Source: a virus
Virus record (IMG/VR): IMGVR_UViG_3300035703_003854
Location: 1 to 33,622 of that record
Length of the DNA: 33,622 bases
Reading direction: 5' to 3' (one strand)
The notes below the pieces were generated by a model. The model saw only the letters and a list, made by a program, of their open reading frames with translations, had not been told where the DNA came from and did no database searches. A program made the translations under genes and the position numbers. Below, one piece after another: positions 3,662-32,846 of this stretch; position 1 is the stretch's first letter; each line of letters starts with the position of its first letter.

Positions 3662-3716
3662 ACCCAATTTTACGAGGAAACATTTTCGGCATCAAATGAT
3701 TTCAGCAGGGGGGCCG

Positions 3717-6924: not shown

Positions 6925-7658
6925 GCGCCGACTGGTATCCCGGCATCAAGGCGTTCAGTGCGCACTGGCGGCAAGCTCCGATGCTGCAACAGACATTCGC
7001 GACGCTCGAAAGGGAGTTTGCAGACGACAACGACGCCTGCATCGATGCCGCAAAAGGCTTTGTCGAATGCGCTTGTCGAGTGCTGATCGAGGAGCTCGAC
7101 GACCCGGTTAGTCCGAAAAAGCCTACAGGGTCCGATCCCGCACTTAGCGAGCTCGTTGGACTTGCGACGAGAATGCTCGACCTCGGCACCGTGCGACATC
7201 GGGCGTTCTCTGATTTGATCAAGCAACACAACAAGCTGACCGAGACGCTCCGAGTCCTGCGAAATGAAGCAGGCACGGTCAGCCACGGCAAGGACGGCTT
7301 TATCGCCAAGCTTTCAGCGCACCACCGGAGGTCAGCATTGCTCGCGGCTGATGCTATTGTCACGTTTCTTCACGAAGCCTATCTCGAACGTGAACCCGAT
7401 CCCGTCCGCACCTTCGAACCATATGAGCGCTTTGAAGCATCGAATGCCCTGATCGATGAGCTCACGACCGTTAGAGCTGAACTGGACGAAGAGGGCTTAA
7501 TCCGAGCTATCGTTGTTCTTCCTGATGGCGAAGAGGTGCCACTCGCAATAGAAACATCACGCCTGCTGTTCGGGGTTGACCGTGAAGCGTACAAGCTCGT
7601 GCTCAATGCATGTCGTGAAGCAAAGACGCTTGCGCCTCCTGAAGCGGAGGTCGGCTGA
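6921..7658 (+). CDS. Abortive infection (Abi_C-like) protein within the hsd operon
   Basis: This 245-residue soluble protein sits between hsdS and hsdR. The middle (about residues 75-155) resembles the Abi_C C-terminal domain of abortive-infection proteins. It contains [15 protein letters not shown], then [14 protein letters not shown] with the typical Arg-Asn and His-Gly, and then [23 protein letters not shown]. Abi_C proteins have been linked to phage exclusion, and the fold is close to HEPN-type helical bundles. The N-terminal 60 residues and the C-terminal 80 residues are not recognised. The gene overlaps hsdS by 4 bases and hsdR by 1 base, so it is made together with the restriction enzyme. 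It may be a second-line defence or a helper of the complex; that role is inferred from position. Confidence 0.75.
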
Positions 7659-10600
7659 TGGCTTATCTTTCTGAGGCCGCCGTGGAACAGGTGGTGCTCG
7701 ATCAACTCCGCAGCCTCGGCTACACGGTTTCATCTGACGCCGAAATCGGCCCGGATGGGAAGGCTCCCGAACGTGAAGCCTACGCCGATGTCGCACTCGC
7801 CAAGCGCCTTGTTGCCGCGATCGATAAACTGAACCCCTCAATCCCTGCTGAAGCGCGTGGCGACGCGTTGCGGAAGGTGCTCGCGACCGAAAAGCCATCC
7901 CTTGTCGAGGAGAACCGGCGTCTTCACAGGCTGATGGTTGAAGGTGTCGATGTTGAATTCTACAGTGAGGACGGCACGATCCGGGGCGACAAGGTTCGTT
8001 TGATTGACTTTGGTAATCTGGCCGCGAATGACTGGCTTGCGACCGGCCAGTTCACGGTGATTGAGGGCAGCTTCAACCGACGGCCGGATATCGTGTTGTT
8101 TGTCAACGGTCTGCCGCTCGGCGTCATCGAACTCAAAGCGCCGGGCGGCGAGAACGCTACCCTTACCGGGGCACATAACCAGCTTCAGACCTACAAGACG
8201 CAGATTCCGTCGTTGTTCCGTACAAACGCGGTGCTTGTCACCTCGGATGGTCTGACCGCGCGGATCGGCTCACTAACCTCCGACCTGGAGCGGTTTATGC
8301 CCTGGCGCACAACCGACGGAAAGGTGATCGCCGCGAAAGGACAGCCAGAACTCAAGACCCTGATCGAAGGCATCTTCGAAAAGCGGCGTTTGCTGGACCT
8401 GGTGCACGATTTTACGGTGTTTGGGGAAACCGGATCGGGTCTAGCGAAGATCATCGCGGGCTATCACCAGTTTCACGCCGTTCGGCACGCGGTTGAGAAG
8501 ACCGTCGAGGCCTCCGCGCCGCAGGGCGATCGGAGGGTCGGCGTGATCTGGCACACGCAAGGTTCCGGCAAGAGCTTGTTAATGGCATTCTATGCCGGGC
8601 AGCTGGTGCGCCGCGCAGAGCTTGAAAACCCTACCATCGTGGTGATCACTGACCGCAATGATCTGGATGATCAGCTATTCGGCACATTCTCCATGTGCTG
8701 CGATCTGATCCGGCAAACTCCAGTCCAGGCCGACAGCCGAGATGACCTTCAGTCTGCTCTCAGCCGAGCTTCGGGCGGCGTGATCTTTACAACTATCCAG
8801 AAGTTCTCGCCCACCACGGGCGAAACCATGTACCCCATGTTGTCGGAGCGGCGGAACATCGTGGTGATCGCCGACGAAGCGCATCGCAGCCAGTATGGCT
8901 TTCGCGCAAAGATCGAACAGAAAACCGGAGAGATCTCCTATGGCTTCGCAAAGTATCTCCGCGACGCCCTCCCGAACGCTTCCTTCATCGGCTTCACGGG
9001 CACACCGATCGAAAAAGACGACGTGAACACTCCGGCTGTGTTCGGTGAATACATCGACGTTTACGATATCAGTCGGGCGGTCGAAGATGGGGCAACAGTC
9101 CCAATCTACTACGAAAGTCGTCTCGCCCGAATCGAGTTGCCGGAGGACGAAAAGCCGAGGATCGATGCCGAAATCGATGAACTGACCGAAGACGAAGCCG
9201 TGAACGAGCAAGAGCGAATCAAGCGCAAATGGGCGACGGTTGAGGCCCTTGTCGGCTCCGAGAAGCGGCTTGCGATGGTCGCGGCTGATCTGGTTCGCCA
9301 TTTCGAGAATCGTGTTGCCGCCATGGATGGCAAGGCAATGGTGGTGTGCATGAGCCGCCGGATTTGCGTCGCACTCTATCAGCAAATCATTGTTCTTCGC
9401 CCTGACTGGCACAGCGACGATGATGCCGCAGGCACGATCAAGATCGTGATGACAGGCTCAGCCGCTGATCCGCGGGCCTGGCAACCTCACATCGGTACAA
9501 AGACGCGGCGCGATTTGCTCGCCAAGCGCGCAAAAGACCCGAAGGACACGCTAAAGCTCGTGATCGTGCGTGATATGTGGCTGACCGGTTTCGACGCTCC
9601 GTCAATGCACACGATGTATATCGATAAGCCCATGAAGGGGCATGGACTGATGCAGGCGATTGCTCGCGTCAATCGGGTGTTCCGCGACAAGCCCGGCGGG
9701 CTCGTCGTGGATTATATCGGGATCGCGCAGAACCTAAAGAATGCCTTGGGCCAATATTCTGGTTCTGATCAGCGACAGGCCGGAATCGACGAAGCCGAGG
9801 CAATCGCCGTGCTTCTTGAAAAGTTCGAAGTCGTGAAGGCGATGTATCACGAATTCGATTATTCGCGCGGGCTCGCAGCAACACCACATGAGCGGCTGGT
9901 GGTGCTTGCCGAGGCCCTGGAATGGATTCTGGATCGCCAGCACAAAGCTGCTGCGCGGGAGACTACTGAAGACGGCAAGCGGAGGGAGAATCGGCGCTAT
10001 CAGGACTCAGTGCTGGCCTTGTCGAAGGCATTTGCGCTGGCCTCGGCGAGTGATGAGGCGCGTGCAGTGCGCGACGAAGTCGGTTTCTTTCAGACAGTTC
10101 GTGCCGCGCTTGTCAAATCGGCTGAGGGGGCCGGAAAAACCACGGCCAATCGTGAGTTTGCGATCCAGCAAATTCTGGATCGGGCCGTTGTTTCGACGGA
10201 GATCGTCGACATCCTCGCAGCAGCCGGGATGACAACGCCGGATATCTCGATATTGTCCGATGAGTTTCTTGCTGAAATCCAGCAACTCGAAAAGAAGAAC
10301 TTGGCGCTTGAGGCTCTGCGTAAGTTGTTGAACGATGAGCTTCGATCCCGAACCAAGACCAACGTCGTCGAGACGAAGCGTTTTTCGGAGCGCTTGGAGT
10401 TGGCCATCTCCCGATATCACACGAACGCTGTCAGTACGGTTGAGGTATTGCAAGAGCTTATCGAACTCGCCAAAGAAGTTCGTGCGGCGCGGAAGCGCGG
10501 CCAAGACGAGGGCCTGTCGCAAGATGAAATCGCTTTCTACGATGCTCTCGCCGAAAGCCAGAGTGCTGTCGAATTGATGGGGAACGATTCATTGAAGATG

Positions 10601-10801
10601 ATCGCGCACGAGCTCCTTGTCAGCCTCAAAGGCAGCGCCACGGTTGATTGGTCACACCGCGAAAGTGCGCGGGCGCGCATGCGCGTATTAGTAAAACGAA
10701 TTCTCCGTAAGCACGGCTATCCACCAGACCTACAGGATGCGGCCGTGCAGACTGTTTTGCGACAAGCGGAAGCACTTTCGGCTGAGTGGGCGAACTCGTA
10801 G
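7658..10801 (+). CDS. hsdR: Type I restriction enzyme, restriction/translocase subunit HsdR
   Basis: HsdR pulls DNA through the bound complex using ATP and cuts unmethylated DNA at a distance. The protein has 1047 residues, normal for the family. The N-terminal nuclease has the PD-(D/E)xK pattern: Asp in RRPDIVLFV (about D144) and Glu/Lys in GVIELK (about 158-160). The motor follows with Walker A in HTQGSGKS (about 299-306), a DEAH box in [14 protein letters not shown] (about 406-409) and FTGTP (about 446-450). Later, near [16 protein letters not shown], is helicase motif VI. The C-terminal helical part (from about 800) probably docks on HsdM/HsdS. All key residues are present. Its ATG overlaps the stop of the Abi_C-like gene (TGATG), which makes it the last gene of the operon. 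Confidence 0.96.
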
Positions 10802-14887: not shown

Positions 14888-17800
14888 TTAAAAGGCGCTC
14901 ACGAGGATGCCGCCGCGGAAAACCAGCGTCGAGTAGGCGGCGCCGTTGATGGTGAACGACCCGCTGACGTTCCACGTCTGGCCGACGTAGCCGCCGAAGA
15001 CGTTGTAGCCGCCGGCGGAGACGCCGAAGTAGCTGACGTCGACGCCGTACCCGACAAACTGGCGCGAGGTGTTGATGCAGGTCACGCCCGAGACGTTGAT
15101 GCCACCGGCCGAGGAGACGACCCCGTTACCGTTGACCTGGAAGTTGAAGTTCGTGGTCTGGAAGGCGATGTTGCCGCCGCTGGCCTGGCTCTGAAAGACG
15201 CCCGCGGCGGTGGCGCTGGCGAGGTTCGTGGCGTTGCGGCTGGAGTCGATGACGAAGGTGCCACCGACGCGGAAGCCCTGAGACAGGTTTGCCGAGCCGG
15301 ATCCGCTGATGTTGCCGTTGCCGTCGACTTGGAAGGCGAAGTTGGTGGTCTGGAAGGCGATGCTGCCGCCGCTGGCCTGGCTCTGAAAGACGCCCGCGGC
15401 GGTGGCGCTGGCGAGGTTCGTGGCGTTGCGGCTCGAGTCGATAACGAAGGTGCCTCCGACGCGGTAGCCCTGGGAGAGGTTCGCCGAACCGGATCCGCTG
15501 ATGTTACCGTTGCCGTCCACCTGATAGCTCCCGTTGGAGGTTTGAAACGCGATTGCCGCGCCCGTGGCCGTGGCGTTGAAAGGGGCGGCGGTCACGCCAC
15601 CGGCGACCTGGAGCTTGGCGCCGGAGCCGTTATCGCTCTGGGTAGCTACCAGGACGCGATCTTCGACCAGGGTCAGGGGATAGTAGCGGTTGCCGGCGAC
15701 CGATTCCGAGGTGAAAGTGATGTCGGTCCCCTCGCCAAAACGCATCATCTGGCCAGAAAGAGACAGGTTGACCCGGGGCCAGTTGAACCAGTTGTACATG
15801 TTCCTGCCGATGCCGGCGCCGGTCCAGGTGTGGCCAGGCTCACTGATCCAGAGATAGATACCGGCATCGCCGTTCGAGGCGCCGTTGTTGGCGGCGGGAA
15901 GGATGAACAGTGCATTCTGCCCATGGCCCCAGGTGGTGCGGGTGGAGCCGACGACCTCCAGTCTTGGGGCGTTCGAAGAGATGGCGGTCACACTGGCGGT
16001 ACCCATGCCGACATTGCCCTTGATCCAGACATTGCCGGAACCTCCCCGTACTTCAAACAGGTTGTCCCAACCCGACGAGAAGACGCCGAAGGAGTTGTTG
16101 GTGCCCAGATGAGGCCCCCAGATGGCGCTCACCGCTCCCAGCTTGGAGCGGTTCGATGCGCCTTTGATAATGCCTTCGTCCCAGTTTGCGCTGCCGTCCC
16201 GGACAAAGACATAGGTGGGCCACTCGTCAGCGTTGGTCAGGCTCCAAGCGCTCTGCCGCCAGTAGTTCCCGCTGGCGAGATCCACGTAGGCGCCGCCGTT
16301 TTCGGAGACGCGGAACTTGTTCGTGCCGGAATCGTAGAAGATCCTGCCTTGTCCTGCGGCGGACAAGCCCGCGTTGGCGGCGGTGTCGGCGGTCAGCGTC
16401 AGGGAGCGGGTACCGACAAGGAAGCGGGCCGTGACTCCGCCTACGGTTGCCTGGATGGCGTCCGTAGCGGAAGAGGGCGTAGCAAAACCGGTGATGGCCC
16501 GAGCGAAGCCGTTGACTTGCAGTTTGGCGCCAGATGAATCGTCGACCAACGTGGCAATCAGCAGATTGCCTGAGGCGTTCATGACATGCGTAGCGGCACC
16601 GCTCAGCCAATACTCAATAGCCGACCCGCCGACTACCAGCTTCTTTCCTGAAACGCCGGTGTTGTTGGCGATTACATATCCAAAATCGCTACCTGCCTGA
16701 TACCCGACGCGAACAGCGGATCCTGCGGCATCGCCCGGGTCATACGACGCAGGGCTCGCGGTAAAGAGGCCCTGTCCGAAAACGTGAAGCCTTTGCCTGG
16801 GGTTGGTTTCATTAAGGCCAACATTGCCAGTGGATTGAAACGTAGCAAGGGCACTGCCTGGACTGTTGTTGTTGTTCCAACTCCCGCAGAAAACATCGAG
16901 GTTATAGTTAGCCGAAGTGTCTTGCCTGGGCTGCAGGCGAGCCATGACCGTATTTGCGTTGCCGCCGTTGGTATTGGCGTTCCAGGTCAACGCAGCGCCG
17001 CTGGTCGCTACTTGATAGACCATGTTCTGCCCAGCACTCAATGTGGTGTTGCCATCAACCGAGCCAAGACCTGCGACGGAACCTACACGAAAGGCGCCGT
17101 TAACGAATAATCCGCCAAAGGTAGGCGAAGCGGCCGTATGGATGTTTTGTGGCAGGCTCAGGGTCACGGTGCCCGTCGACGCTGACACGTTCACCTGATT
17201 CGCCGTCCCGGTCAGAGAGGTGACGCCTGCGGTGCTGAGCAGGTCCGCGTAGGCGCCACCGTTTTCCGACACGCGGAATTTATTCGAGGTGGAGTCGAAG
17301 TAGATGCGGCCCTGGCCAGATCCCGAGAGCCCCGCGTTGGCGGCGGTATCGGCGGTCAGTGTGAGCGAACGGGTGCCGATGAGGAAGCGGGCGGTGACGC
17401 CCCCGGAGGGAGCCTGGAGGGCGTCGGTGGCGGAGGATGGCGTGGCGAAGCCGGTGATGGCGCGAGCGAAGCCATTGATCTGCAGGCGGGCACCCGAGCC
17501 GTCATCGGTGGAAGTGGCGACCAGGACGTTGCCGCCCGTATCCCCAATAATCGTGGTGCCGCGAATGTAGTTACGAAAGTCGCCCGGCCAGGGCAGATGG
17601 GTCTGGGCCCCATTCCCGGCGGTCCCACCTCGGGTGTAAAAGTACGAGGCGAGCGTCAGGCCGTCGAAGGTCGGCGCCGCCCCGGTGTGGACGTTCTGCG
17701 GCAGGCTGAGCGTCACCGCACCGGCGGCGGCCGATACGTTGACCTGATTGGCCGTCCCGGTAAGGCTGGTCACGCCGATGCTCGTGAGGTCCTGGAAGGC

Positions 17801-20800
17801 GCCCCCGTTCTCCGAGACCCGGAACTTGTTGGTGCCCGAGTCGTAGTAGATGCGGCCCTGGCCGGCGGCGGAGAGGCCGGCGTTGGCGGCGGTATCGGCG
17901 GTCAGGGTGAGCGAACGGGTGCCGATGAGGAAGCGGGCGGTGACGCCACCGCTGGGTGCCTGGAGGGCGTCGGTGTTGGCCGAAGGCGTCGAAAAGCCGC
18001 TGGCCGCGCGGACGAAGCCGTTCACCTGCAGTTTTGCTCCCGAGCCATCATCGTTGGTGGTGGCCACGAGGACATTGCCGTTACTGAGAAGAGTCAGACA
18101 CGTCAGGCCGTTGTAACTACGGATTCCGCTATGGGGATTGAAGTCCGCCCCCGAGTGGTAGCCGATATCGAGGAACGTGCTGTCCTGCCCACTGGTGCCG
18201 ATGCTCCAGTGCTTGTTGCCATTATCCCCGCTGTTCTTGCTACCCAGCATGATGGTGGGGCCGTGGTTGGGGTTCGCCACCTGGCTCATCAGGACGATCT
18301 GCGGATAGTGACCGGTCAGTCCCAGGCTGGGCCGGTCCGCCCCATCCTGATAGATGGCGCTGATCGAGAGCGGCGTCCCGGCGATGTGCAGTTTGCCGGC
18401 AGGATCCGGAGTCCCGATTCCGACGTTGCCCGCAGCTGTGGCGGTCAGGGCCAGCAACCCTCCAGGCCAGAGCGAAACTGGGCTGCCGTAGACCCGCATG
18501 TCGCCCAGCGCCCGGGTTGCACCGTTTGAAATCATCGAAATCGTTCCGATCGTCGAACTGGGCTTTTGGACTTCGACCACCGAGCCTGAGGTCGCGTACT
18601 GCACTCCCCGGACATGCAGTCCTCCCGTCGCGACATCAACGGCAGCCTGCGGGGCGGTGGTCCCGATGCCAACATTGCCGCCCAGCGGGTTCAAAAGCAG
18701 AGCAGTCGGCGCAACTCCGTTCAGGACACTTTGTACCCACGCCGCCGAGTAAGTGCTGCTGTAGCCCAAGGCCAGACGGTGGGCGGTTGAGGCTCCGGTC
18801 AGCAGAAGGGATCCGGCCTCGGCTTGCGGGTCGGTGGCGCCTTTGGAAATCTGCAGTCCGTTCAGGAAGTTCACCTGCGCCGTGGTTCCGATCAGGACGT
18901 TGCCGCTGTTGTTAATCCGCACCAGTTCGGTAAACGTCGCCGAGTTCTGACGGTAGCCGATCGCCAGATTTACACCGGCAACCGTTCCAAGCTTGTACCC
19001 GTATCCAGCGCCAGACGGACTGCTTTTAAACTCGAGACCCCTGGATCCATCAATCGTGGCGGCCTCATTCGGATCCTGGATCTGTATGTAGCCACGGGTG
19101 GTTGCCTCCCCCGTTCCTGCGACGTACGACCCAACCGTGAGCAGTGTTTGTGCAAGCGGTGTGCCTATGCCCACGTTGCCGTTAATGGTGGCTCCGCCAA
19201 ACGTCGGCGACGCAGCGGTATGGATACTCTGGGGAAGACTGAGGGTCACCGCCCCCGTCGCTGCCGATACAATCACCTGGTTGGCGGTTCCGGCCAGGCT
19301 GATTACCCCTGGTCCGGTGAGGTCCTGAAAGGCGGCGCCGTTCTCCGAGACGCGAAACTTGTTGGTGCTGGAGTCGAAGTAGATCCTTCCCTGCCCAAGG
19401 CCGGACACTCCCGCATTGGCGGCCGTGTCACCAACCAGCGTCAGAGAGCGCGTGCCGATGAGGAAGCGGGCGGTGACTCCTCCGGAGGAAGCCTGGATGG
19501 CGTCGGTGGCGGAGGACGGCGTGGCGAAGCCGGTGATGGCGCGAGCGAAGCCGTTGATCTGCAGCCTGGCGCCCGAGCCGTCGTCCACGTTGGTCGCGAC
19601 CAGGACGTTGCCGCCCCCGTCAGCCAGGACCGTACCGCCCCGGATGTAGTTCCGGCCATCTCCTCCTGCTAAAGGGAGATGAGATTGTGAACCGTTTCCT
19701 CCGGCGCCACCCTTGGTGTACAGGTACGCGGAGATGCTGAGACCGTCGAAGGTCGGTTGCGCCCCGGTGTGGATGTTCTGCGGCAGGCTCAGGGTCACCG
19801 CACCCGTGGCGGCTGAGACGCTCACCTGGTTGGCCGTTCCGGCCAAGCTGGTTACACCTGCTCCGGTGAGGTCCTGGAAGGCCCCGCCGTTTTCCGAGAT
19901 CCGGAACCTATTGGCGGTGGAGTCGAAGTAAATCCGCCCCTGGCCCAGGCCGGACACACCTGCATTGGCGGCCGTGTCTCCGACCAGCGTCAGCGAGCGC
20001 GTGCCGATCAGAAACCGCGCCGTGACTCCGCCGCCGGTCGCCTGGATCGCATCGGTGTTCGTTGATGGCGTGGCGAAGCCGACAGTTGCCCGGGCGAACC
20101 CGGCAATCTGTAGCCGAGCGCCGGAGGCATCATCGGTGTTCGCGCCGACCAGCCAGTTGCCGGCGTCGGTGATGCGACCGCGGGCGGCATTGTTGGTGAT
20201 AAAGACCAGCGGATGGTTGCTGGTGGCGCCGACGGTTGGGCCCCCGTAGGAGGAGACGAAGTACACCCCGGTCTGCGTATTGTTGGTGATCGTTAGACCG
20301 TCGTCGGTGTTCGCGCGCAGGGTAAGCAGTGATGCCGAGATGGAAGAGCCGAGGGTGACTCGCCCCGAGGACCGGTAGATATCGGCGCCCAGCACGCTCC
20401 AGCGGGACGGCTCGAACGGAGTCCACACCCGTGCGCCGGCGGAGGCCGACGTACTTTGCTCGAAGGCCTTGGTCGTCGCGTTGTAGCGAATGAGGCCGAC
20501 GGTATCGGCGAGCAGGTTGGCTTCCGCCGCGGCAAACGTGGTGGCGGCCAGCGCCAGGAACCCGTCGGCATAGAACTTCGACGAGAGCACGGCGTCATCG
20601 AAGGCAGAAGACGTGCGCGCTCCCGTGGCGATCACCCCGCCGACCGCATCGAGGCTGATGTTCAGCAGCGGGCCGCCCGAGCCGCCGCCCGACAGAGCGG
20701 CTTGGTCGAGCAGCGAGAGTACGGACTTGGTGATCGAGCCGTTGGTCCAGTAGGCCCGGAGGTAGCCGTCCTCGCGCTGCAGCGTGGTCTTGCTCTCGGT

Positions 20801-22372
20801 GGCCAGGCCGGACTTGTTCGAAGCAAACTCCCGCGCCGTCCGGGAGCCGCTGGTTGCCGCACGTAGGAACTCAAACGTGTTCGTTCCGTGGAGACGGTTT
20901 CCGTACACCCGGTTGCTGTCGGAAGCGGAGAACGCGAATCCGTTCGGGTCCTCCTGCACAGAGGCCGTGATGGTCGCCGGGCTGTAGTGAATGTCGTTGT
21001 CGGTGACCGTGTTGGCGTAGGCGCGCTGGTTGGCGCCGCTGCCGATGTTGCCAAGGATGATCGGCGCTACCGACGCCGTGGCCGGGTGCTCGATCGTGTT
21101 GCCGGAGACCGTTCCCCGGCGGGAGGCGTACATCCGGATCGCGCCGAACCCACAGTTGCGGAAGCGGTTTCCGGTGACCCGGACGCCGACGGCGGCATCG
21201 GCAAGGTTATTCGTGTTCGAGGTCTGTGCGCCGTAGCAGTAGTTTCCCGCCCAGGAGGCAATCGCGTCCTCGGTGTACTCGGGTTCGCCGGCGGCAGGCA
21301 CGATCACCGTGTTGTCGCTGACGACGCCCTCGGCGAAACCGTCGAGATCCATCGCGGCGCCGTAACAAGAGACGAACGAGTTCCCGCGATAGCTCACGCC
21401 GCGCGTGAGCCCTGCCGTGTCGAGGCCGACCGCCCACTGGCCGTTGATCCACCGGGGGATCCCAGCGCTGACATCATCCGTGCAGATGTAGCCGATGCGC
21501 CGGAAGAAGTTCCCGGCGATGTCGCCACCCACGACCCCGCCCAGCATGATCCCATCGCGGCCGATGTCTTCGAACGTGCAGCCCTGGATCTTGACGTCCG
21601 TGTGCAGTGTGCCGAAGCCGTACAAATGGCTCCAGACCTGGTTGCCGGTACCCCGGCGGAAGCGTCCGTCGCGGACGGTGAGGCCCCGGACGCCGTAGCT
21701 GTTGGTCAGCCCGTCGCCCTGGGCGAGGATCCCGCCGGTCCAGCTTCCGTAGATCTCGCTGCTGGCCGTCGCCCCGAACAGGAACGAGCGGTTGTCGTGC
21801 AGATGCGGTTCGATGATCTCGACGCGGTAGACGTTTGCCGTCCGGGCATCGATGTGCACGGCGTAGCCGCCGGTATGGAAGATCCGGCAGCGGAACAGGG
21901 TGATGTCGGCGGCACCGGGATGAATGCGGATTGACGAGTTCGCCACCAGCGCACTCGCGGACGGATCGCTCAGGCTGCTGTAGAGCGCCGTCGCGGGCGT
22001 CGTGACCTGCCCATCAATCGCCAGCTCGCCGCACCCGGACTTCGCGTCGGCGAAGTTCAGGACCCCGCGCCCGGCCGCGAGATTTCCGATCCTCTTGAGG
22101 ATAGTCCGCGCTGCGCCATCGCCCTGCAGAAACACATTCCCTGGAATCGTCAGGTCCATCACCGGGTAGACGCCCCAAGGCAGATACAGCACGCCACCGC
22201 CCGCGCTCGCCACGGCATTCAACCCGCTCTGCATGGCGCTCGTCAGGTTGCTCGTCGCGGTCCCGGCGCGGACCGCGGCGTGCTGCGCCTCGGGGATGAA
22301 GTCCAGAGCCGAGGGCCGCTCACCCAGTTTGTCGCTCAGGCTCCGCGCGATTCGATTGGCAAACTCAGGCAT
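14888..22372 (-). CDS. Giant tailspike/tail fibre with beta-helix and repeat modules
   Basis: The 2494-residue protein is probably the receptor-binding fibre. The N-terminal region (about 45-520) looks like a right-handed beta-helix of the pectate-lyase/tailspike type. It contains GGGVLYLPWGVYPV, IPGNVFLQGDGAARTILKR and many N-x-(I/V)-x-G-N turns (NRFRNCGFG, SGNTIEHP, VTDNDIHY), which may bind or cut surface sugars. The remainder is a long shaft: five copies of a roughly 140-residue module containing GVTARFLIGTRSLTL, GQGRIY(F/Y)DS and FRVSENGGA, joined by GNVLVAT..DDGSGA(R/K)LQ(I/V)NGFA linkers. Near the C-terminus are about 2.5 tandem 64-residue repeats. No intramolecular chaperone (S74 peptidase) ending is seen. 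The ATG overlaps the hub gene by 8 bases. Confidence 0.9.
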   Translation of the reverse strand: MPEFANRIARSLSDKLGERPSALDFIPEAQHAAVRAGTATSNLTSAMQSGLNAVASAGGGVLYLPWGVYPVMDLTIPGNVFLQGDGAARTILKRIGNLAAGRGVLNFADAKSGCGELAIDGQVTTPATALYSSLSDPSASALVANSSIRIHPGAADITLFRCRIFHTGGYAVHIDARTANVYRVEIIEPHLHDNRSFLFGATASSEIYGSWTGGILAQGDGLTNSYGVRGLTVRDGRFRRGTGNQVWSHLYGFGTLHTDVKIQGCTFEDIGRDGIMLGGVVGGDIAGNFFRRIGYICTDDVSAGIPRWINGQWAVGLDTAGLTRGVSYRGNSFVSCYGAAMDLDGFAEGVVSDNTVIVPAAGEPEYTEDAIASWAGNYCYGAQTSNTNNLADAAVGVRVTGNRFRNCGFGAIRMYASRRGTVSGNTIEHPATASVAPIILGNIGSGANQRAYANTVTDNDIHYSPATITASVQEDPNGFAFSASDSNRVYGNRLHGTNTFEFLRAATSGSRTAREFASNKSGLATESKTTLQREDGYLRAYWTNGSITKSVLSLLDQAALSGGGSGGPLLNISLDAVGGVIATGARTSSAFDDAVLSSKFYADGFLALAATTFAAAEANLLADTVGLIRYNATTKAFEQSTSASAGARVWTPFEPSRWSVLGADIYRSSGRVTLGSSISASLLTLRANTDDGLTITNNTQTGVYFVSSYGGPTVGATSNHPLVFITNNAARGRITDAGNWLVGANTDDASGARLQIAGFARATVGFATPSTNTDAIQATGGGVTARFLIGTRSLTLVGDTAANAGVSGLGQGRIYFDSTANRFRISENGGAFQDLTGAGVTSLAGTANQVSVSAATGAVTLSLPQNIHTGAQPTFDGLSISAYLYTKGGAGGNGSQSHLPLAGGDGRNYIRGGTVLADGGGNVLVATNVDDGSGARLQINGFARAITGFATPSSATDAIQASSGGVTARFLIGTRSLTLVGDTAANAGVSGLGQGRIYFDSSTNKFRVSENGAAFQDLTGPGVISLAGTANQVIVSAATGAVTLSLPQSIHTAASPTFGGATINGNVGIGTPLAQTLLTVGSYVAGTGEATTRGYIQIQDPNEAATIDGSRGLEFKSSPSGAGYGYKLGTVAGVNLAIGYRQNSATFTELVRINNSGNVLIGTTAQVNFLNGLQISKGATDPQAEAGSLLLTGASTAHRLALGYSSTYSAAWVQSVLNGVAPTALLLNPLGGNVGIGTTAPQAAVDVATGGLHVRGVQYATSGSVVEVQKPSSTIGTISMISNGATRALGDMRVYGSPVSLWPGGLLALTATAAGNVGIGTPDPAGKLHIAGTPLSISAIYQDGADRPSLGLTGHYPQIVLMSQVANPNHGPTIMLGSKNSGDNGNKHWSIGTSGQDSTFLDIGYHSGADFNPHSGIRSYNGLTCLTLLSNGNVLVATTNDDGSGAKLQVNGFVRAASGFSTPSANTDALQAPSGGVTARFLIGTRSLTLTADTAANAGLSAAGQGRIYYDSGTNKFRVSENGGAFQDLTSIGVTSLTGTANQVNVSAAAGAVTLSLPQNVHTGAAPTFDGLTLASYFYTRGGTAGNGAQTHLPWPGDFRNYIRGTTIIGDTGGNVLVATSTDDGSGARLQINGFARAITGFATPSSATDALQAPSGGVTARFLIGTRSLTLTADTAANAGLSGSGQGRIYFDSTSNKFRVSENGGAYADLLSTAGVTSLTGTANQVNVSASTGTVTLSLPQNIHTAASPTFGGLFVNGAFRVGSVAGLGSVDGNTTLSAGQNMVYQVATSGAALTWNANTNGGNANTVMARLQPRQDTSANYNLDVFCGSWNNNNSPGSALATFQSTGNVGLNETNPRQRLHVFGQGLFTASPASYDPGDAAGSAVRVGYQAGSDFGYVIANNTGVSGKKLVVGGSAIEYWLSGAATHVMNASGNLLIATLVDDSSGAKLQVNGFARAITGFATPSSATDAIQATVGGVTARFLVGTRSLTLTADTAANAGLSAAGQGRIFYDSGTNKFRVSENGGAYVDLASGNYWRQSAWSLTNADEWPTYVFVRDGSANWDEGIIKGASNRSKLGAVSAIWGPHLGTNNSFGVFSSGWDNLFEVRGGSGNVWIKGNVGMGTASVTAISSNAPRLEVVGSTRTTWGHGQNALFILPAANNGASNGDAGIYLWISEPGHTWTGAGIGRNMYNWFNWPRVNLSLSGQMMRFGEGTDITFTSESVAGNRYYPLTLVEDRVLVATQSDNGSGAKLQVAGGVTAAPFNATATGAAIAFQTSNGSYQVDGNGNISGSGSANLSQGYRVGGTFVIDSSRNATNLASATAAGVFQSQASGGSIAFQTTNFAFQVDGNGNISGSGSANLSQGFRVGGTFVIDSSRNATNLASATAAGVFQSQASGGNIAFQTTNFNFQVNGNGVVSSAGGINVSGVTCINTSRQFVGYGVDVSYFGVSAGGYNVFGGYVGQTWNVSGSFTINGAAYSTLVFRGGILVSAF
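15122..15590 (-). repeat. Tandem 192-bp repeats near the fibre C-terminus
   Basis: About 2.5 tandem units of 192 bases (64 codons) encode AFQ..F.VDGNGNISGSGSANL, SQG(F/Y)RVGGTFVIDSS and ATAAGVFQSQASGG. One 80-base stretch (around 15160-15240) recurs almost unchanged around 15352-15432, which implies recent duplication or gene conversion. Confidence 0.85.
16245..20160 (-). repeat. Five dispersed module repeats in the fibre shaft
   Basis: Related modules lie at about 19745-20160, 19195-19615, 17665-18085, 17115-17545 and 16245-16580 (the last shorter). Each encodes the sequence from the LQ(I/V)NGFA linker through GTRSLTL and FRVSENGGA, and four go on to VTLSLPQ.IHT. They come as two close pairs plus one single, suggesting pairwise duplication. 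All stay in frame. Confidence 0.85.
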
Positions 22373-26006: not shown

Positions 26007-26410
26007 CAGTTCACCTCCACGAGCTGGATCTGGACGTCGGTGCGTGCCATCCCCATCGACTGCTGCCACGGCCCCTCGAAGCGGACCGTGACTCGTCCCG
26101 TCGCACTCGCTCCCGTGGGATCGTAGTTCGATCCGATAGGAACCACGGCGAAGGGATCGTAGTAAAAGAAGGGCTCGGTCCCGCCGCGCCGGGCCAGGTA
26201 GAAGGAGCGCAAGGCTGCGAGTGCGGAGCCGGAGAGCCGGGCAGCGAGGACCCACTTCCGGCGACTGCTCGCCACCTGGAGCGCCCGCTGGGACTCGCCG
26301 TTGCGGTAATCGTTAGCCTGCAGCGCGATCTCCCGCGTCTGCTGGAAGGCGGTGCAGAGCATCTGCGGGAGCACCGATGCGGGTGCCGCGTTCGAGACAT
26401 TTCCGGGCAT
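26006..26410 (-). CDS. Minor tail protein (gpM/DUF2460-like)
   Basis: The 134-residue protein contains LRSFYLARRGGTEPFFYYDP, then IGSNYDPTGASATGRVTVRF and a closing MARTDVQIQLVEV. This is the pattern of small tail-tip proteins that sit between tape measure and hub (lambda M and the DUF2460 group). It would form part of the ring at the tail end. The ATG overlaps the tape-measure stop (TAATG) and its own stop overlaps the hub start (TGATG), so translation is coupled on both sides. The assignment rests on pattern and gene order. Confidence 0.75.
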   Translation of the reverse strand: MPGNVSNAAPASVLPQMLCTAFQQTREIALQANDYRNGESQRALQVASSRRKWVLAARLSGSALAALRSFYLARRGGTEPFFYYDPFAVVPIGSNYDPTGASATGRVTVRFEGPWQQSMGMARTDVQIQLVEVN

Positions 26411-29400
26411 TAGGAGGTTACTGTTCCCGGCGCCAACTGCAGGCTCAGAAACTCACGGCGGCCAGCGCTCGATCGGGTCGCGCTCAGCACGGCGGACTGG
26501 GCCGCGCGCGGGTTCTCCGCGATCGCCTGGACCGCCTCCCCGCGGAGCAGATCCGTCGTCGCCGCTCCATCGAGCTGGATCACGACGGACAGCGGTGCGT
26601 TCTGCGCGGTACCCGCCGCGATTACGCCGCCACCAACCAGCGGCATCGGCATCCCGTTGGCAAACCCGGGCTGCTGGTAAAGCGATCCGCCGGACTGCAT
26701 GAGGGTCAGCGGCTGGGCCTGTGGCGGCATCCCACTGGCCTTCTGACCCGTCATCTGGCTCCACAACTGGATCAGTTCGCGGATCTGCGGGCTCTGGACG
26801 GCCAGCATGTAGTTGCCGCCAAAGGCCGACTTCGCGGTCTGTGCGACCTGCCCCAGGAGACCCTTGTCCCAGACATCGACGCCGTAGGTGGCCCGAATGG
26901 CCTCCCGCGCCTTCTGCTCCGGGGTCTTACGCATCGCGCTGATCAGCCCGATCGTCGCGCCAATCGCCGCACCAATTGCAGCGCCGATTGGCCCACCAAT
27001 TGAGCCGATCTGGGCGCCGATTGCCAAACCCGCAAGAGCGCCGCCCCCAGCGGTCAGGCCGAACTTCAACGCCTTGTTCTGAGCCTTGTAGCCGGCCATG
27101 ATCATCAGTGGGCCTGCCAGTAGTGCGGCATTCGACGTCCCGACGCCGGCAAGCGCCCCTTTGACGCCGCCGATCCCGGCAGCCGTTGTCGCCGCACCGC
27201 CGCCCAGCGCGATCGAGCCGGAGTTGAAGAGCAGGCTGCCGAACCCGGCGAGACCACCGGCAGCGCCCAGCAAGCCGCCTGCGCCGCCCGTGGTGGCGCC
27301 CGGCGCCGCGTTCCCGGACACGGAGCCCACCGGCCCAGCGAAGCCGCCCGTGCCGCCCGGCGCACCAGGAATCATCACGCCCGGCATCCCGCCGGTGAGC
27401 GAGCCCAGGCTGCCCAGGCCCAGCATGCCCGCCAGCCCCGTCGAGCCGCCGCCGGGGCGCGCGCCACCGAAGACCGGACTGCCGCCGAGCTGTCCGCCGC
27501 CGGGGACGAAGCTGACCTGCCCCAAGCCGAACAGCTGCATCAGCGAGGCCGCCACGCGGCTCGTGATGATCTCGCGGATGGCCGTCAGCACGGCTACCTT
27601 GAAGGCGTTTCCGATCGCGGTGAATACGTTCTGGCTGCGGTTGAGCAGGGCGTCAAAGACTTTCTCAGCGCCACCCTTCAGTGACTCGTAAGCCCGCCGC
27701 TGCTGATCAATGATCAACTGCGTTGAGGTGACACTTAACTCCTGCGCCCGCTTCTGCTGGGCTCGTTTGAACTCATCATCGAGCCCGTCGACGGTGGCGG
27801 AGTACCGCTGCCAACTCGCCACACGGATGGCGCTGATCTGATCTTCGGTGGTGCCGGTGGCCCGCAGCCGGGCTTCGAGCAGGAGTAACTCGCCGTTGAA
27901 CTCGAGCTCCAGCATCCGCTTCTTGTGCTCCAACAGCTTCTGGTCCGCCACTGTTTCGATGGCAAACTTCTGCTGCTCGAGGGCGATCTTCTGGGCGACC
28001 GTGACCGCCTGGATCCGTTCGAGGCTCTGCAACTGCAGGTCCCGCGAATGGGTGATCGCCTCCTCGTCGCGGCGTAGCCGGTCCAAGTCGGCCGACTGCG
28101 CAATCTGCATTGCTTCGCCGGAGAGCCCAAGCCGGTTCGAGAACCGCTCCGCTCCCGGGGCCAGCACCTGTTGGGCGAAGGTCTCCCGCTGGGAATCTAT
28201 CTGTTCTGCCAACTGCTGCTGCCAACTGCCGAAGACGAAAGGCCCGGGTTTCCCGTTCGGGCCCGTGATGCGCCCACCAAAGAGCGCCGACCTCTCCCGT
28301 TCGACCTCCACGGCCACCGACTGCCGCAGCAACCGGATGGCCTCTCCGGCGCCGGCATCGCGCGCGGACTTGAACGCCTCGGCGTACTCGGGCTCTATCT
28401 TGAAAAGCCCCACGGCCAGCTGGCGCCGGGTCTGCTCGAGCTTGGCCCGGGCACCGTCAACGGCAGCTTTGATGGCGACCTCGTTCGCTTTGAGCAGGTT
28501 CTGTTTGATCTCCTCGTCCTGTTTGGCGCCGGCCCGCATGGTTTCCCGCAAAAGCTCCGAGTACTCGGTGTCGCCGAGCGAGCCGCGGGACGGGACCTGC
28601 ATGCCCCGGCGCCGCATCGCCTCCTCCATCTTTCCGATGGCGAAGGTCAGGTTGCGGTCAGCCTGCTGGCCCATCTCCGCGTCGCGGTTCGAGGCGAAAC
28701 CCAGCTTGGCCCACACGCTGTCCTGCAGCCAGTTTGAAAACTCCTTGAGCGGGCCCACGTTCTCCCGCAGCCATTCGCCCATCTTCCATCCGGCGAACGC
28801 TGCGCCCACCACCGCGATGGCCTTGCCGAACCGCAACAGCGTGGCTTCGCTCCCGATCAGCGCGCCGCTCATCCCGGTGAGCACGGCGACAACGACGGTC
28901 CGCAATGTCGTGAAGGCCGCCGCGGCACGGGCGAGATTCGCCGGCAGGAAGGAGAACACGCTCAACAAGCTGGGCAGGATGGTCAGCGCCGCGGTGAGCG
29001 CAATGAGGGCGGCCGTCGTGTTGCGGACGGGTTCAGGGAGTTCGCGAAACGCCTTGAGCGCGGGCGTCAGATAGTCGAGCAGGGCCCGCAGGCCGTCGAC
29101 GGCACTCTTGGCGGCGGGCGTGAAGGCCTCACCGAGTTCAACGGCGGCGAACTTGGCGGCATCGGCAAGCTTCGAGAACTGGGCGCCGATCACATTACTG
29201 GTCGTCGCCGCGCCGAGGCCCCCGAACTGCCGCTCCATGCCGCGCAGGATGGCCTGCAGGCCCACGTCAGCATCGAGGCGCTGCTGCTCGGCCAGCTTCA
29301 TAACCTCGCCCGGGGTGACGGTCTTCTTCGTCTGGCGCGAGAGCTCTTCGGCGAGATAACGAGACGCCGCGATGCCGGCTTCCCCCAACTGCTTGTTGAT

Positions 29401-29946
29401 CTCCTCGGCGTTGAGCCGGCCCTTGACCTTGATCTGGCCGATGGCCAGGCCAATCTGGTTTAGTTTCTCGACCGTCCCGCCGACGCCGGCCGCCGAGTCG
29501 GCCACTGCTTTTACGGTGCGCAGAAGTTCCTGGCCCTGGAAGCCGAACGCCGAGAGCGACGTGGTCAGGTTCTGCAGATCTTGGAACTCGAAGGGCTGCT
29601 GGAGGGAGAGTGCTCGCAGATCGGTCAGCGTCTTCCGCGCCGCTTCGGCCGACCCGGTCATCTGGGTCATGGTGATCTGCGCGCGCTGGAAGTCGGAGGT
29701 CAGTTGCAGCAGTCCCGCGCCGGCGCCACCGGTCACCAGGCCCAGGAGCGCAGCCTTGGCGCGCTCAAACTGGCGGGACATCAGCTCGACCTGGACGGAG
29801 ACTCCGCGCAGGGACCCGGTGGCCTGGGTGGACGCCGACTGCGCGGCGCCGCCGATCTGGCGGATGTTCTGATTGAGCGTGTTGATGGCCGCACCGGCCT
29901 GGCCGGTCTGGAAGTCGACCTGAACGTAGATGCGGTTGGCTGCCAT
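26410..29946 (-). CDS. Phage tail tape measure protein
   Basis: The tape measure sets tail length and later helps DNA pass into the cell. The 1178 residues show the expected features: an N-terminal coiled region (FQTGQAGAAINTLNQNIRQIGG), then the tape-measure domain (about 80-280, with LTSDFQRAQITMTQMTGSAE, LSAFGFQGQELLRTVKAVAD and GRLNAEEINKQLGEAGI). Hydrophobic helices follow at about 300-375, long helices at about 440-800, and a Gly/Ala-rich hydrophobic stretch at about 870-1040. By the common rule of 0.15 nm per residue the tail would be near 175 nm. It lies after the chaperone genes and before the tail tip, the usual siphophage order, but the toxin-antitoxin pair separates it from the chaperones. 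Confidence 0.94.
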   Translation of the reverse strand: MAANRIYVQVDFQTGQAGAAINTLNQNIRQIGGAAQSASTQATGSLRGVSVQVELMSRQFERAKAALLGLVTGGAGAGLLQLTSDFQRAQITMTQMTGSAEAARKTLTDLRALSLQQPFEFQDLQNLTTSLSAFGFQGQELLRTVKAVADSAAGVGGTVEKLNQIGLAIGQIKVKGRLNAEEINKQLGEAGIAASRYLAEELSRQTKKTVTPGEVMKLAEQQRLDADVGLQAILRGMERQFGGLGAATTSNVIGAQFSKLADAAKFAAVELGEAFTPAAKSAVDGLRALLDYLTPALKAFRELPEPVRNTTAALIALTAALTILPSLLSVFSFLPANLARAAAAFTTLRTVVVAVLTGMSGALIGSEATLLRFGKAIAVVGAAFAGWKMGEWLRENVGPLKEFSNWLQDSVWAKLGFASNRDAEMGQQADRNLTFAIGKMEEAMRRRGMQVPSRGSLGDTEYSELLRETMRAGAKQDEEIKQNLLKANEVAIKAAVDGARAKLEQTRRQLAVGLFKIEPEYAEAFKSARDAGAGEAIRLLRQSVAVEVERERSALFGGRITGPNGKPGPFVFGSWQQQLAEQIDSQRETFAQQVLAPGAERFSNRLGLSGEAMQIAQSADLDRLRRDEEAITHSRDLQLQSLERIQAVTVAQKIALEQQKFAIETVADQKLLEHKKRMLELEFNGELLLLEARLRATGTTEDQISAIRVASWQRYSATVDGLDDEFKRAQQKRAQELSVTSTQLIIDQQRRAYESLKGGAEKVFDALLNRSQNVFTAIGNAFKVAVLTAIREIITSRVAASLMQLFGLGQVSFVPGGGQLGGSPVFGGARPGGGSTGLAGMLGLGSLGSLTGGMPGVMIPGAPGGTGGFAGPVGSVSGNAAPGATTGGAGGLLGAAGGLAGFGSLLFNSGSIALGGGAATTAAGIGGVKGALAGVGTSNAALLAGPLMIMAGYKAQNKALKFGLTAGGGALAGLAIGAQIGSIGGPIGAAIGAAIGATIGLISAMRKTPEQKAREAIRATYGVDVWDKGLLGQVAQTAKSAFGGNYMLAVQSPQIRELIQLWSQMTGQKASGMPPQAQPLTLMQSGGSLYQQPGFANGMPMPLVGGGVIAAGTAQNAPLSVVIQLDGAATTDLLRGEAVQAIAENPRAAQSAVLSATRSSAGRREFLSLQLAPGTVTS

Positions 29947-30046: not shown

Positions 30047-30070
30047 AGTATTCGCAAACTTGCGAATACT
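30047..30070. promoter_or_regulatory. Palindromic operator before the toxin-antitoxin genes
   Basis: A perfect 11-bp inverted repeat with a 2-base gap (AGTATTCGCAA, AC, TTGCGAATACT) lies 10 bases before the toxin ATG. Such palindromes are the usual binding sites of XRE-type antitoxins that repress their own operon. It probably also covers the start of transcription. Confidence 0.75.
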
Positions 30071-30080
30071 ATGGAGGTGG

Positions 30081-30449
30081 ATGCCACGGTCGCGAGTTGT
30101 CCTATTTCGGGAAATTGACGGTGTGTGTCCGTTCTTGGACTGGTTTGCAGGCTTGCCCGCCAAGGCTCAGGATAAGTGCTTCCTGCGATTGGAGCGGCTA
30201 CGCGAACTGGGGCACGAGTTGAGACGACCGGAGGCGGACCTTCTTCGAGACGGGATCTATGAACTGCGAATCATATTCCAGGGAATCAACTACCGCATCC
30301 TGTACTTTTTCCACCGGACCGAGGCTGTCGTGATCTCGCACGGAATCATCAAGGAGCGGATCGTTCCGCCAACGGAAATCGAGCGGGCGATCGATCGGAA
30401 GAAGCGATTTGAAGCCGCGCCCAGCCAGCACACTTATCAGGAGGGATGA
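30081..30449 (+). CDS. higB: HigB/RelE-family toxin (Gp49-like)
   Basis: This 122-residue protein belongs to the phage Gp49/HigB-like branch of RelE toxins, which cut mRNA at the ribosome. It reads RVVLFREIDGVCPFLDWFAGLP, then LRELGHELRRPEADLLRDGIYELRI, NYRILYFFH, VVISHGIIKE and a C-terminal HTY. These are conserved blocks of the family. I chose the ATG at 30081 because a GGAGG lies just ahead of it; a TTG at 30060 would lie inside the operator. The antitoxin gene follows after one base. It lies on the plus strand inside a minus-strand phage operon, so it is a separate unit (a moron) that may protect or stabilise the prophage. Confidence 0.9.
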   Translation: MPRSRVVLFREIDGVCPFLDWFAGLPAKAQDKCFLRLERLRELGHELRRPEADLLRDGIYELRIIFQGINYRILYFFHRTEAVVISHGIIKERIVPPTEIERAIDRKKRFEAAPSQHTYQEG

Positions 30450-30450
30450 G

Positions 30451-30771
30451 ATGACGAAACGGACGAAGGCAACGAGTGACGCACTAGCGATCCTTCACAA
30501 ACGCCACTACGAAGGTGATCCAGCTCGCTTGCGCGGCTTGAACGAAATGCGGACCAATGAGGAGATCGCCCGGCAGATCTTTGGCCTACGCACTGCCGCC
30601 GGTTTGTCTCAGGCGCAACTGGCCAAGCTGATCGGCACAACGGCTTCTGTCATCTGTCGGCTGGAAGACGCCGACTATGAAGGACATTCGCTGGCGATGC
30701 TCCGCCGAATCGGTGCCGTCCTCGACCAGCGGGTCGAAGTTCGTTTTGTGCCGCTTGGACGTTCCGCCTAG
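30451..30771 (+). CDS. higA: HigA-family antitoxin (XRE helix-turn-helix)
   Basis: The 106-residue antitoxin starts at the ATG at 30451, with GGAGG ahead of it inside the toxin gene's last codons. The N-terminal 40 residues (..DALAILHKRHYEGDPARL..) are likely the toxin-binding part. The XRE helix-turn-helix spans about residues 41-90 (ARQIFGLRTAAGLSQAQLAKLIG, TTASVICRLEDADYEGHSLAML), and a short strand VEVRFVP closes the protein. It would bind the HigB-like toxin and repress the operon through the palindrome upstream. The longer frame from a TTG at 30409 has no support. Confidence 0.9.
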   Translation: MTKRTKATSDALAILHKRHYEGDPARLRGLNEMRTNEEIARQIFGLRTAAGLSQAQLAKLIGTTASVICRLEDADYEGHSLAMLRRIGAVLDQRVEVRFVPLGRSA

Positions 30772-30861: not shown

Positions 30862-31152
30862 CTACGGCCTCTCCGTCAATGACTCGTTCCGCCAAGCCTC
30901 GCGCTCCTCGTGCAAGGCGCGAAGCATCCGGAAGTCGTCATAAGCCACGTCGTCCAGATCCACGGCAAACCGGGCCGTAACCGCGAAGTCGAGGTCCACG
31001 ATGTTGCGCAGTTGCGCGCCCATGGGCGACTCGAGCACGGCATCGAGATAAGCGAGCGGACATTCCATGCACGGGGTCGCATCGTCCGGGGCCCCCGGGC
31101 ACATCCGGGCTCCCGGGCAGAGCGTGTCCCGGCGGAACATCATCCGGAACAC
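30862..31152 (-). CDS. Tail assembly chaperone T-like domain (made by -1 frameshift)
   Basis: The frame at 30862-31152 encodes 96 residues from a GTG, but it stays open upstream to 31194, where it joins the end of the G-like gene through a -1 slippery site. It is therefore probably made mainly as the C-terminal 110 residues of a G-T fusion of about 309 residues. Such fusions bind the tape measure and recruit tail tube protein in lambda-like phages. The start of the domain carries four cysteines (C-x5-C-x9-C-x2-C, about residues 12-31), perhaps a metal site. The second half is acidic and helical (LDFAVTARFAVDLDDVAYDDF). It lies between G and the tape measure as expected. Confidence 0.75.
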   Translation of the reverse strand: MFRMMFRRDTLCPGARMCPGAPDDATPCMECPLAYLDAVLESPMGAQLRNIVDLDFAVTARFAVDLDDVAYDDFRMLRALHEEREAWRNESLTERP

Positions 31153-31164
31153 GCGCCGGGGCGT

Positions 31165-31200
31165 GGGCGAGTCGGGTAGCTCGCCCGCTGCTAAAAACCC
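31165..31200 (-). other. Programmed -1 ribosomal frameshift signal
   Basis: On the minus strand the end of the G-like gene reads GAG GGT TTT TAG. The heptamer G-GGT-TTT fits the X-XXY-YYZ slippery rule in the correct phase, one codon before the stop. Seven bases after it a perfect stem forms (GGGCGAG / CTCGCCC, 8-base loop, 31165-31186). A slip of -1 avoids the stop and enters the T-like frame. Confidence 0.8.
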
Positions 31201-31808: not shown

Positions 31809-32846
31809 TTACGCCAGAATGTTGTCCTGATTGGTGGTCACGACAGCCGTCATCAGGCCGTTGGTCGTGTGCCAGAGCGGCTGCACGGTCACCTCGACGG
31901 TCACGATCCCGTCGGCGTCGTTGACGACTGCGGTGGCAAAGCGCACCCGGTGCCAGGTGACCGAACAGCTGTGATAGGTCGAGCCGCTGATCAGCGCGCC
32001 CTGGAGCGACCAGGTGATCGTCCCCTCGGTCTGCGCATAGAGGTCCGTGAGTTCCGTCGACCCGGTGTCGAAGCGCGCCTGGAATTTGAAGCCGGGCACG
32101 CGGTCGCCGAACTCCATCCGGCCGCGGATGGCGGCGCCGGTATCGGTGCCCGAGCCCGGATAGAAGCCCGTCTGCTCCCGCACCGAGTTGTTCCAGGTCT
32201 GCTCCAGCATGACGAAGTTCCGGTTCGTCACATAGTTCACGCTGTTGATGGTGATGGCGGCGGAGGCGGAGTTCAGGAACTCTTCGCTGACCGCCGAGGG
32301 AATGGTGATCGTCGAGGGCCGCACGACCTTGCCGGCGCCGATGAAGTTCGCGGTCACCCTGGCGTTGGCGCGGCCCGGTCCGGAGGCGAGCGTGACGTTG
32401 AACTCCGAAAGCACGCAGCCCACGGCGGCCCGGTCGAGCACCGGCGTCGCGCCTTGGCGAATCGCCTCGACGTAGGTGAACGCCTTCATGTCGATGCCGT
32501 CGGCGACCGGGTCCTGCGGCGCGCAGGTGTAGGTGTAGGCGCCGGCCACGGGTGTCGTCTTGGTCGTCTTGCCCAGGCCGAAGCAGAAGACCCAGGCCAG
32601 GAACTGACTCGAGATGTACTTCTCAAACGAGCCCGTCACGTTCCAGTGGCTCTTGTAGTTGTTGAGCGCAAACTCGTTACCCTTGCCGATCTCCGCGGCG
32701 TCGTTCTCGGTTACCATGTCGACGACCGAGAGCGCGGCGTTGAGCTTGGTGAACGACCAACAGTCGGCGGCCGCCAAGGGCGTCTGCAGCGCGGTCTGTT
32801 TGCGGAAGCTGATCCCGATGCGGGTCTCGCGGATATTAGCGGACAT
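31809..32846 (-). CDS. Phage major tail tube protein
   Basis: The 345-residue protein forms the stacked rings of the tail tube. It shows the long beta-rich sequence expected, with an N-terminal block (RIGISFRKQTALQTPLAAAD), repeated short strands and turns (NVTGSFEKYISSQFLAWVF, RANARVTANFIGAGK), and a C-terminal part (GTITWSLQGALISGSTYHS, DGIVTVEVTVQPLW) that may be a surface Ig-like decoration. It starts 1 base inside the stop of the small gene upstream and is followed closely by the chaperones, the usual order in siphophages. It is longer than the roughly 250-residue lambda tube protein. Confidence 0.85.
   Translation of the reverse strand: MSANIRETRIGISFRKQTALQTPLAAADCWSFTKLNAALSVVDMVTENDAAEIGKGNEFALNNYKSHWNVTGSFEKYISSQFLAWVFCFGLGKTTKTTPVAGAYTYTCAPQDPVADGIDMKAFTYVEAIRQGATPVLDRAAVGCVLSEFNVTLASGPGRANARVTANFIGAGKVVRPSTITIPSAVSEEFLNSASAAITINSVNYVTNRNFVMLEQTWNNSVREQTGFYPGSGTDTGAAIRGRMEFGDRVPGFKFQARFDTGSTELTDLYAQTEGTITWSLQGALISGSTYHSCSVTWHRVRFATAVVNDADGIVTVEVTVQPLWHTTNGLMTAVVTTNQDNILA

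Follow-up and report, generated by a model that had tools for sequence, protein, structure and literature searches.

Among the genes of a virus record of 33,622 bases, analysed here over its whole length (the window), a G-like gene for a putative tail assembly chaperone ends where a second, T-like reading frame begins in the −1 frame. This layout raises the question of whether two independent proteins are made from the overlapping frames, or whether some of the ribosomes that translate the first frame shift back by one base and thereby add the second. In the following we address this question from the layout of the site itself, from its conservation in relatives, and from a comparison with known frameshift systems.

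Two overlapping frames in the window

The relevant features all lie on the minus strand, so that higher coordinates are upstream:

31809..32846, minus: major tail protein-like gene, 345 aa, directly upstream of G (role by position)
31790-31191, minus: ORF of the putative G-like tail assembly chaperone, 199 aa, the zero-frame product
31200-31194, minus: slippery heptamer G GGT TTT, in phase with the G-like ORF
31193-31191, minus: zero-frame stop TAG, directly 3' of the heptamer
31193-31187, minus: 7-nt spacer TAGCAGC between heptamer and stem
31186-31180, minus: 5' arm of the stem, GGGCGAG
31179-31172, minus: loop CTACCCGA, 8 nt
31171-31165, minus: 3' arm of the stem, CTCGCCC
31194-30862, minus: T-like domain in the −1 frame, 110 codons plus TAG (30864-30862)
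31152-31150, minus: GTG that a gene caller would take as the start of T, probably wrongly
26410..29946, minus: tape measure protein, 1178 aa (PHROG tape measure, E 4e-21; Pfam TMP_3, E 6e-18)

The G-like ORF ends in GAG GGT TTT TAG, and the heptamer abuts the stop, since TAG comes immediately after it. GGGTTTT is unique within positions 31830-30740, and a slip by −1 would re-pair GGT as GGG in the P site and TTT as TTT in the A site. The spacer is followed by a perfect 7-bp stem, GGGCGAG paired with CTCGCCC. A first-pass annotation of this DNA had proposed these elements, namely a phased G-GGT-TTT heptamer at the end of the G-like gene, a 7-base spacer and a perfect 7-bp stem; the heptamer was indeed found, abutting the stop, at 31200-31194, and spacer and stem could both be located at 31193-31165. 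That annotation had also described a −1 frame open for 110 codons into the T-like frame and a fusion of 309 residues. We confirmed this reading frame from position 31194, so that the predicted fusion comprises 199 + 110 = 309 aa, with ...CEGF-LAAGELPDSPTPR as the predicted peptide across the G-T junction. As anticipated there as well, a gene caller would end the first protein at the stop and open the second at the GTG: calling by start codons gives an ORF of 96 aa (30862..31152) that begins at GTG 31152.

Conservation of the slip site and of T in relatives

Neither G nor T matched any family in Pfam or PHROGs, and a tblastn search against phage records found no match for G or for the tail protein, the tape measure gene being matched over only ~19% of its length. 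Homologues were therefore looked for in IMG/VR, where profile searches retrieved 80 loci via the tail protein and 80 via G. A further full-length match (L180) was found among 396 Acidobacteriota genomes. After identical copies were dropped, the set held 105 loci with a G-like gene. T could be placed in 96 of these; in eight of the other nine the contig ends within G, and the ninth (L182) is a distant match. The closest relatives share 89% (L001 and L002), 87% (L003) and 60% (L009) identity with the window in G. A copy with 80% identity in G (L004) lies in an Acidobacteriota genome bin and is a decayed prophage remnant (L004:5001-5722), which retains the GGGTTTT TAG slip site but has broken frames for T and the tail protein. 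A search of the literature turned up no tail chaperones described for Acidobacteria prophages.

In all 96 loci with a placeable T, this frame lies at −1 relative to G. One locus (L039) at first appeared to carry T in the same frame as G, an artefact of ORF pairing that was gone once T was placed by its domain. A slippery sequence in the overlap and in phase with G was found throughout the set: 86 of the 96 loci carry a canonical X XXY YYZ heptamer in phase at the 3' end of G, and the remaining ten keep alternative slip sequences. As a background, the 16,568 codon pairs examined across the bodies of the homologous G genes contained the same heptamer pattern 14 times. The canonical sites are CCCAAAC (70 loci), GGGAAAC (6), GGGTTTT (4), AAATTTT (4), AAATTTC (1) and AAAAAAC (1). 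Most abut the stop (69 loci), with one codon in between in 16 and 45 nt in a single locus, so that a stop follows within 0-3 nt in 85 of the 86.

The seven exceptions of one kind are GGTTTTT (L001), AAGTTTT (L014), GGGGGAA (L034, L036, L037 and L040) and CCCGGAA (L042), and three more loci have C CCT TAG (L016), T TTT TAA (L050) and T TTT TGA (L172). Even close relatives can lack the strict heptamer, since L001 and L002 have GGTTTTT; when read as G GTT TTT, the P-site tRNA is unable to re-pair perfectly. In L009, AAATTTT stands in place of the GGGTTTT of the window, a change that replaces Gly by Asn and keeps the slippery pattern. Over the G tree (41 rows, with several long branches unsure) the slip sequence changed at least 15 times and the −1 relation was never lost. 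The first-pass annotation had named relatives that lack the heptamer while keeping both proteins separately as the case that would speak against a frameshift; no such case appeared in the 96 loci, in which T is always at −1.

We compared the substitution pattern of T between the window, L001 and L003. In the −1 frame, dN was 0.014-0.027 and dS 0.31-0.50 (dN/dS ~0.05-0.07 in these close relatives), and in the other two frames of the same region the pattern was reversed and stops were present. This pattern indicates purifying selection on T as read at −1, including the part upstream of GTG 31152. Indeed, the 14 T codons upstream of this GTG are conserved as protein in relatives: the residues LAAGELPDSPTPRR recur unchanged in L001 and L003 and with little change in L009, and a Gly, a Pro and an Arg in this part are kept down to 19% identity.

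The conserved residues of T begin around the stop of G, where start codons are rare. Within −30 to +6 of the G stop, 3 of the 96 loci have an ATG, GTG or TTG in the frame of T, and in 51 of the 96 no T-frame start codon was found from −30 to +120. No Shine-Dalgarno-like sequence precedes GTG 31152. As judged from these start-codon positions, T, a second ORF that overlaps G at −1, is without a plausible start of its own in most loci.

The downstream hairpin and the probable shift mechanism

The hairpin of the window is unexceptional on its own (z −0.8 against synonymous shuffles). We therefore turned to the family, with shuffles in which neither the T protein nor its codon usage changes. Over 45 non-redundant loci, the folding energy directly after the slip site had a mean z of −1.53, and further down T the mean z of these loci stayed between −0.47 and +0.27 in all windows; over 92 loci the mean z after the slip site was −1.59. 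By this measure, the hairpin just after the slip site is under selection beyond that on the protein sequence. The suggestion of the first-pass annotation that the stem-loop stimulates the frameshift thus gains support from synonymous sites across the family.

The main group of relatives has a stem in which GCGGGGAG-T-GGCC is paired with GGCC-CTCCCTGC. L048 and L147 carry a compensatory change, in which two synonymous substitutions turn a G-C pair of the stem into C-G. Covariation was modest in the main group as a whole, with two pairs showing changes on both sides and an equally high value in 58 of 500 shuffles. The 3' arm in the clade of the window lies ~6 bases nearer than in the main group, and the stem seems to have been rebuilt there in another register, which would favour selection for having a stem at this place. 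RNAalifold found no structure in a mixed alignment of all clades, probably because the register of the 3' arm differs between the window's clade and the main group; the main group alone folded. Pairing of CCCA in the slip site with a conserved TGGG, as seen in the main-group fold, was disregarded, since the TGG encodes a conserved Trp and the slip site is inside the ribosome at that moment.

We conclude, with a probability of about 0.93, that a programmed −1 ribosomal frameshift yields two tail assembly chaperone products from one mRNA; the slippage, its rate and the roles of the proteins we infer from the nucleotide sequence and its conservation. Most ribosomes would read GAG GGT TTT and terminate at TAG, releasing the 199-aa G-like protein. 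For a minority, the downstream hairpin would cause a pause while tRNA-Gly and tRNA-Phe occupy GGT TTT, and both tRNAs could then move back by one base, to GGG TTT. Translation would resume with TTA GCA GCG and extend the product by the T-like domain of 110 aa. The predicted task of the G-like part is to coat the tape measure protein, and that of the rarer fusion is to recruit the tail tube subunit. Simultaneous −1 slippage of two tRNAs, aided by the hairpin, is most likely the exact step.

The main rival for this step is a slip of tRNA-Phe alone (T TTT to TTT), with TTT in the P site facing a slowly read TAG, which would give the same fusion peptide. Such a slip would be possible in the window and in L001, where a T precedes TTT, and the stop that it calls for is directly next to the slip site in 69 loci and no more than 3 nt away in another 16; in L050 (GAT TTT TAA) and L172 (TCT TTT TGA) only the last sense codon re-pairs well, and L016 (CGC CCT TAG) is similar. 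However, 86 of the 96 loci keep the full two-codon heptamer, and the changes at X (GGG, AAA, CCC) preserve a P-site re-pairing that is needless if a single tRNA slips at the next codon. In addition, a sense codon separates heptamer and stop in 16 loci, and the stop is some 13-15 codons off in L014 and L063. We consider the single-tRNA slip unlikely as the general step, and it may operate in L050 and L172. A role of the abutting zero-frame stop as part of the signal, with slow termination driving the −1 slip and the single-tRNA slip being the whole mechanism in L050 and L172, would similarly surprise us; if the stop does act in this way, the ratio of GT to G would respond to the supply of release factor.

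We regard it as very improbable that T is translated independently, from GTG 31152 or the ATGs just after it, by re-initiation or translational coupling, with the heptamer being incidental. An ORF from this GTG exists and coupling is frequent in bacterial polycistronic genes, but the GTG has no Shine-Dalgarno-like sequence, T-frame starts are missing in the 51 loci mentioned above, protein-level conservation of T extends upstream of the GTG, and chance would have to keep the heptamer in 86 of 96 loci. Still less credible is transcriptional slippage at the T run, or a sequencing error that splits one gene. There is a run of five T at the site, yet this is short for slippage of RNA polymerase, for which runs of A over 7 or of T over 8 are cited (PMC3711429). 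Moreover, the site is CCCAAAC in most relatives, where no run exceeds three, and the two-frame layout recurs in 96 loci.

Known systems, the two proteins and the gene neighbourhood

Among the closest known systems is the −1 frameshift of the tail assembly chaperone G/GT of phage lambda, reportedly treated by Xu, Hendrix and Duda (2004). The gene order here is that of the lambda G/GT arrangement and thus of an already known kind: both systems have the order tail tube protein, G, T and tape measure, a T frame at −1 that overlaps the end of G, and a canonical X XXY YYZ heptamer close to where G ends. The proteins have no detected sequence relation or confident fold relation to those of lambda. 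Further differences from lambda are the apparent tandem duplication of G, the four conserved cysteines of T, the position of the heptamer directly at the G stop, and a downstream hairpin that is under selection. The lambda G/GT frameshift is not known to need a downstream hairpin. In long-tailed phages, G/GT −1 frameshifting is widely conserved despite low sequence similarity, and in lambda gpG and the rarer gpGT, at 30:1, bind the tape measure and recruit the tube protein (PMC5009743).

Two further systems share single elements with this one. The g-t frameshifts of the haloarchaeal siphoviruses HCTV-1, -2 and -5 use G_GGA_AAC and A_AAA_AAC sites, both of which are found here too (PMC5009743). 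These viruses have archaeal hosts and are likened by their shift sites. The −1 frameshift of dnaX gives a shifted product that is shorter. It is bacterial and, as here, combines a slippery heptamer with a downstream hairpin, but it lies in a cellular gene, uses A AAA AAG and has an upstream Shine-Dalgarno-like stimulator (PMC3711429).

The actinophage tail chaperone frameshifts catalogued for PRFect have the same gene role (PMC10885494). The training set of PRFect consists mostly of tail chaperones, and GGGGGAA and CCCGGAA are quoted as the common sequences of two of its motifs, with G:U pairing as the proposed explanation. Seven of our ten non-canonical slip sites fit its backward-shift classes (PMC10885494): the classes fivetwo (GGGGGAA) and threetwotwo (CCCGGAA) match by their exact sequences, and twofive (GGTTTTT) and twoonefour (AAGTTTT) by motif name only. 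The distance from slip site to stop differs, with a mean of 26 nt in the PRFect actinophages, as given in the preprint (PMC10274946), against 0-3 nt in nearly all loci here.

With these results, the G/GT frameshift of the lambda type is extended to a large group of uncultured phages, represented here by 105 non-identical loci. The group includes a decayed copy and a relative in Acidobacteriota genomes, and its chaperones have no PHROG or Pfam match. Automatic annotation would miss the G-T fusion and start T too late. The family offers ~13 natural slip sequences in one gene, at the same place by the stop and usually with a hairpin, and this set may serve as a comparative panel for which slip sequences bacteria tolerate. 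The understanding of the frameshift mechanism is unchanged by the finding.

An AlphaFold2 model of G (mean pLDDT 94) has a repeated strand-strand-helix pattern. In hhalign, the N-terminal half matched the C-terminal half with E 2e-4 and a probability of 46%, against E values of 0.06-0.6 for column-shuffled controls; this match points to a tandem duplication, and G probably consists of two tandem copies of a related domain. A PHROG scan with 41 G and 41 T members gave no match. Fold searches with G gave no confident chaperone match and no PDB chain with Z of 5 or more among those compared; the best viral match, the tail assembly protein FS-gp41 of phage Mu (E 0.03, TM 0.21), is only a hint. Four cysteines of T are conserved, with C32 and C45 invariant and C26 and C42 present in at least 90%, and are spaced C-x5-C ... 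C-x2-C in the window. Their conservation suggests a metal site in T, a feature that is not known from lambda T. The model of T (pLDDT 83) had no usable match in fold searches.

The major tail protein-like gene had no Pfam or PHROG match. It is kept upstream of G in relatives, and from its position and conservation we infer that it encodes the tube protein. With the order tail protein, G, T and tape measure, the pair lies between the putative tail tube gene and the tape measure gene. T and the tape measure gene of the window are separated by an insertion on the opposite strand (30060-30771, plus), a toxin-antitoxin-like pair made up of an HTH antitoxin-like protein and a member of the Gp49/DUF891 family (E 3e-17). 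In L003 and L009, T is directly followed by the tape measure gene.

Elsewhere in the window, the tail region holds an ORF of 2494 aa (14888-22372, minus) with no significant Pfam family, possibly a tail fibre or tip protein. A DDE transposase (DUF772 and DDE_Tnp_1; 2255-3667, minus) lies near the left end. A Type I restriction-modification operon with HsdM, HsdS and HsdR (4023-10801, plus) carries, between its S and R genes, a protein of 245 aa with an Abi_C (abortive infection) domain.
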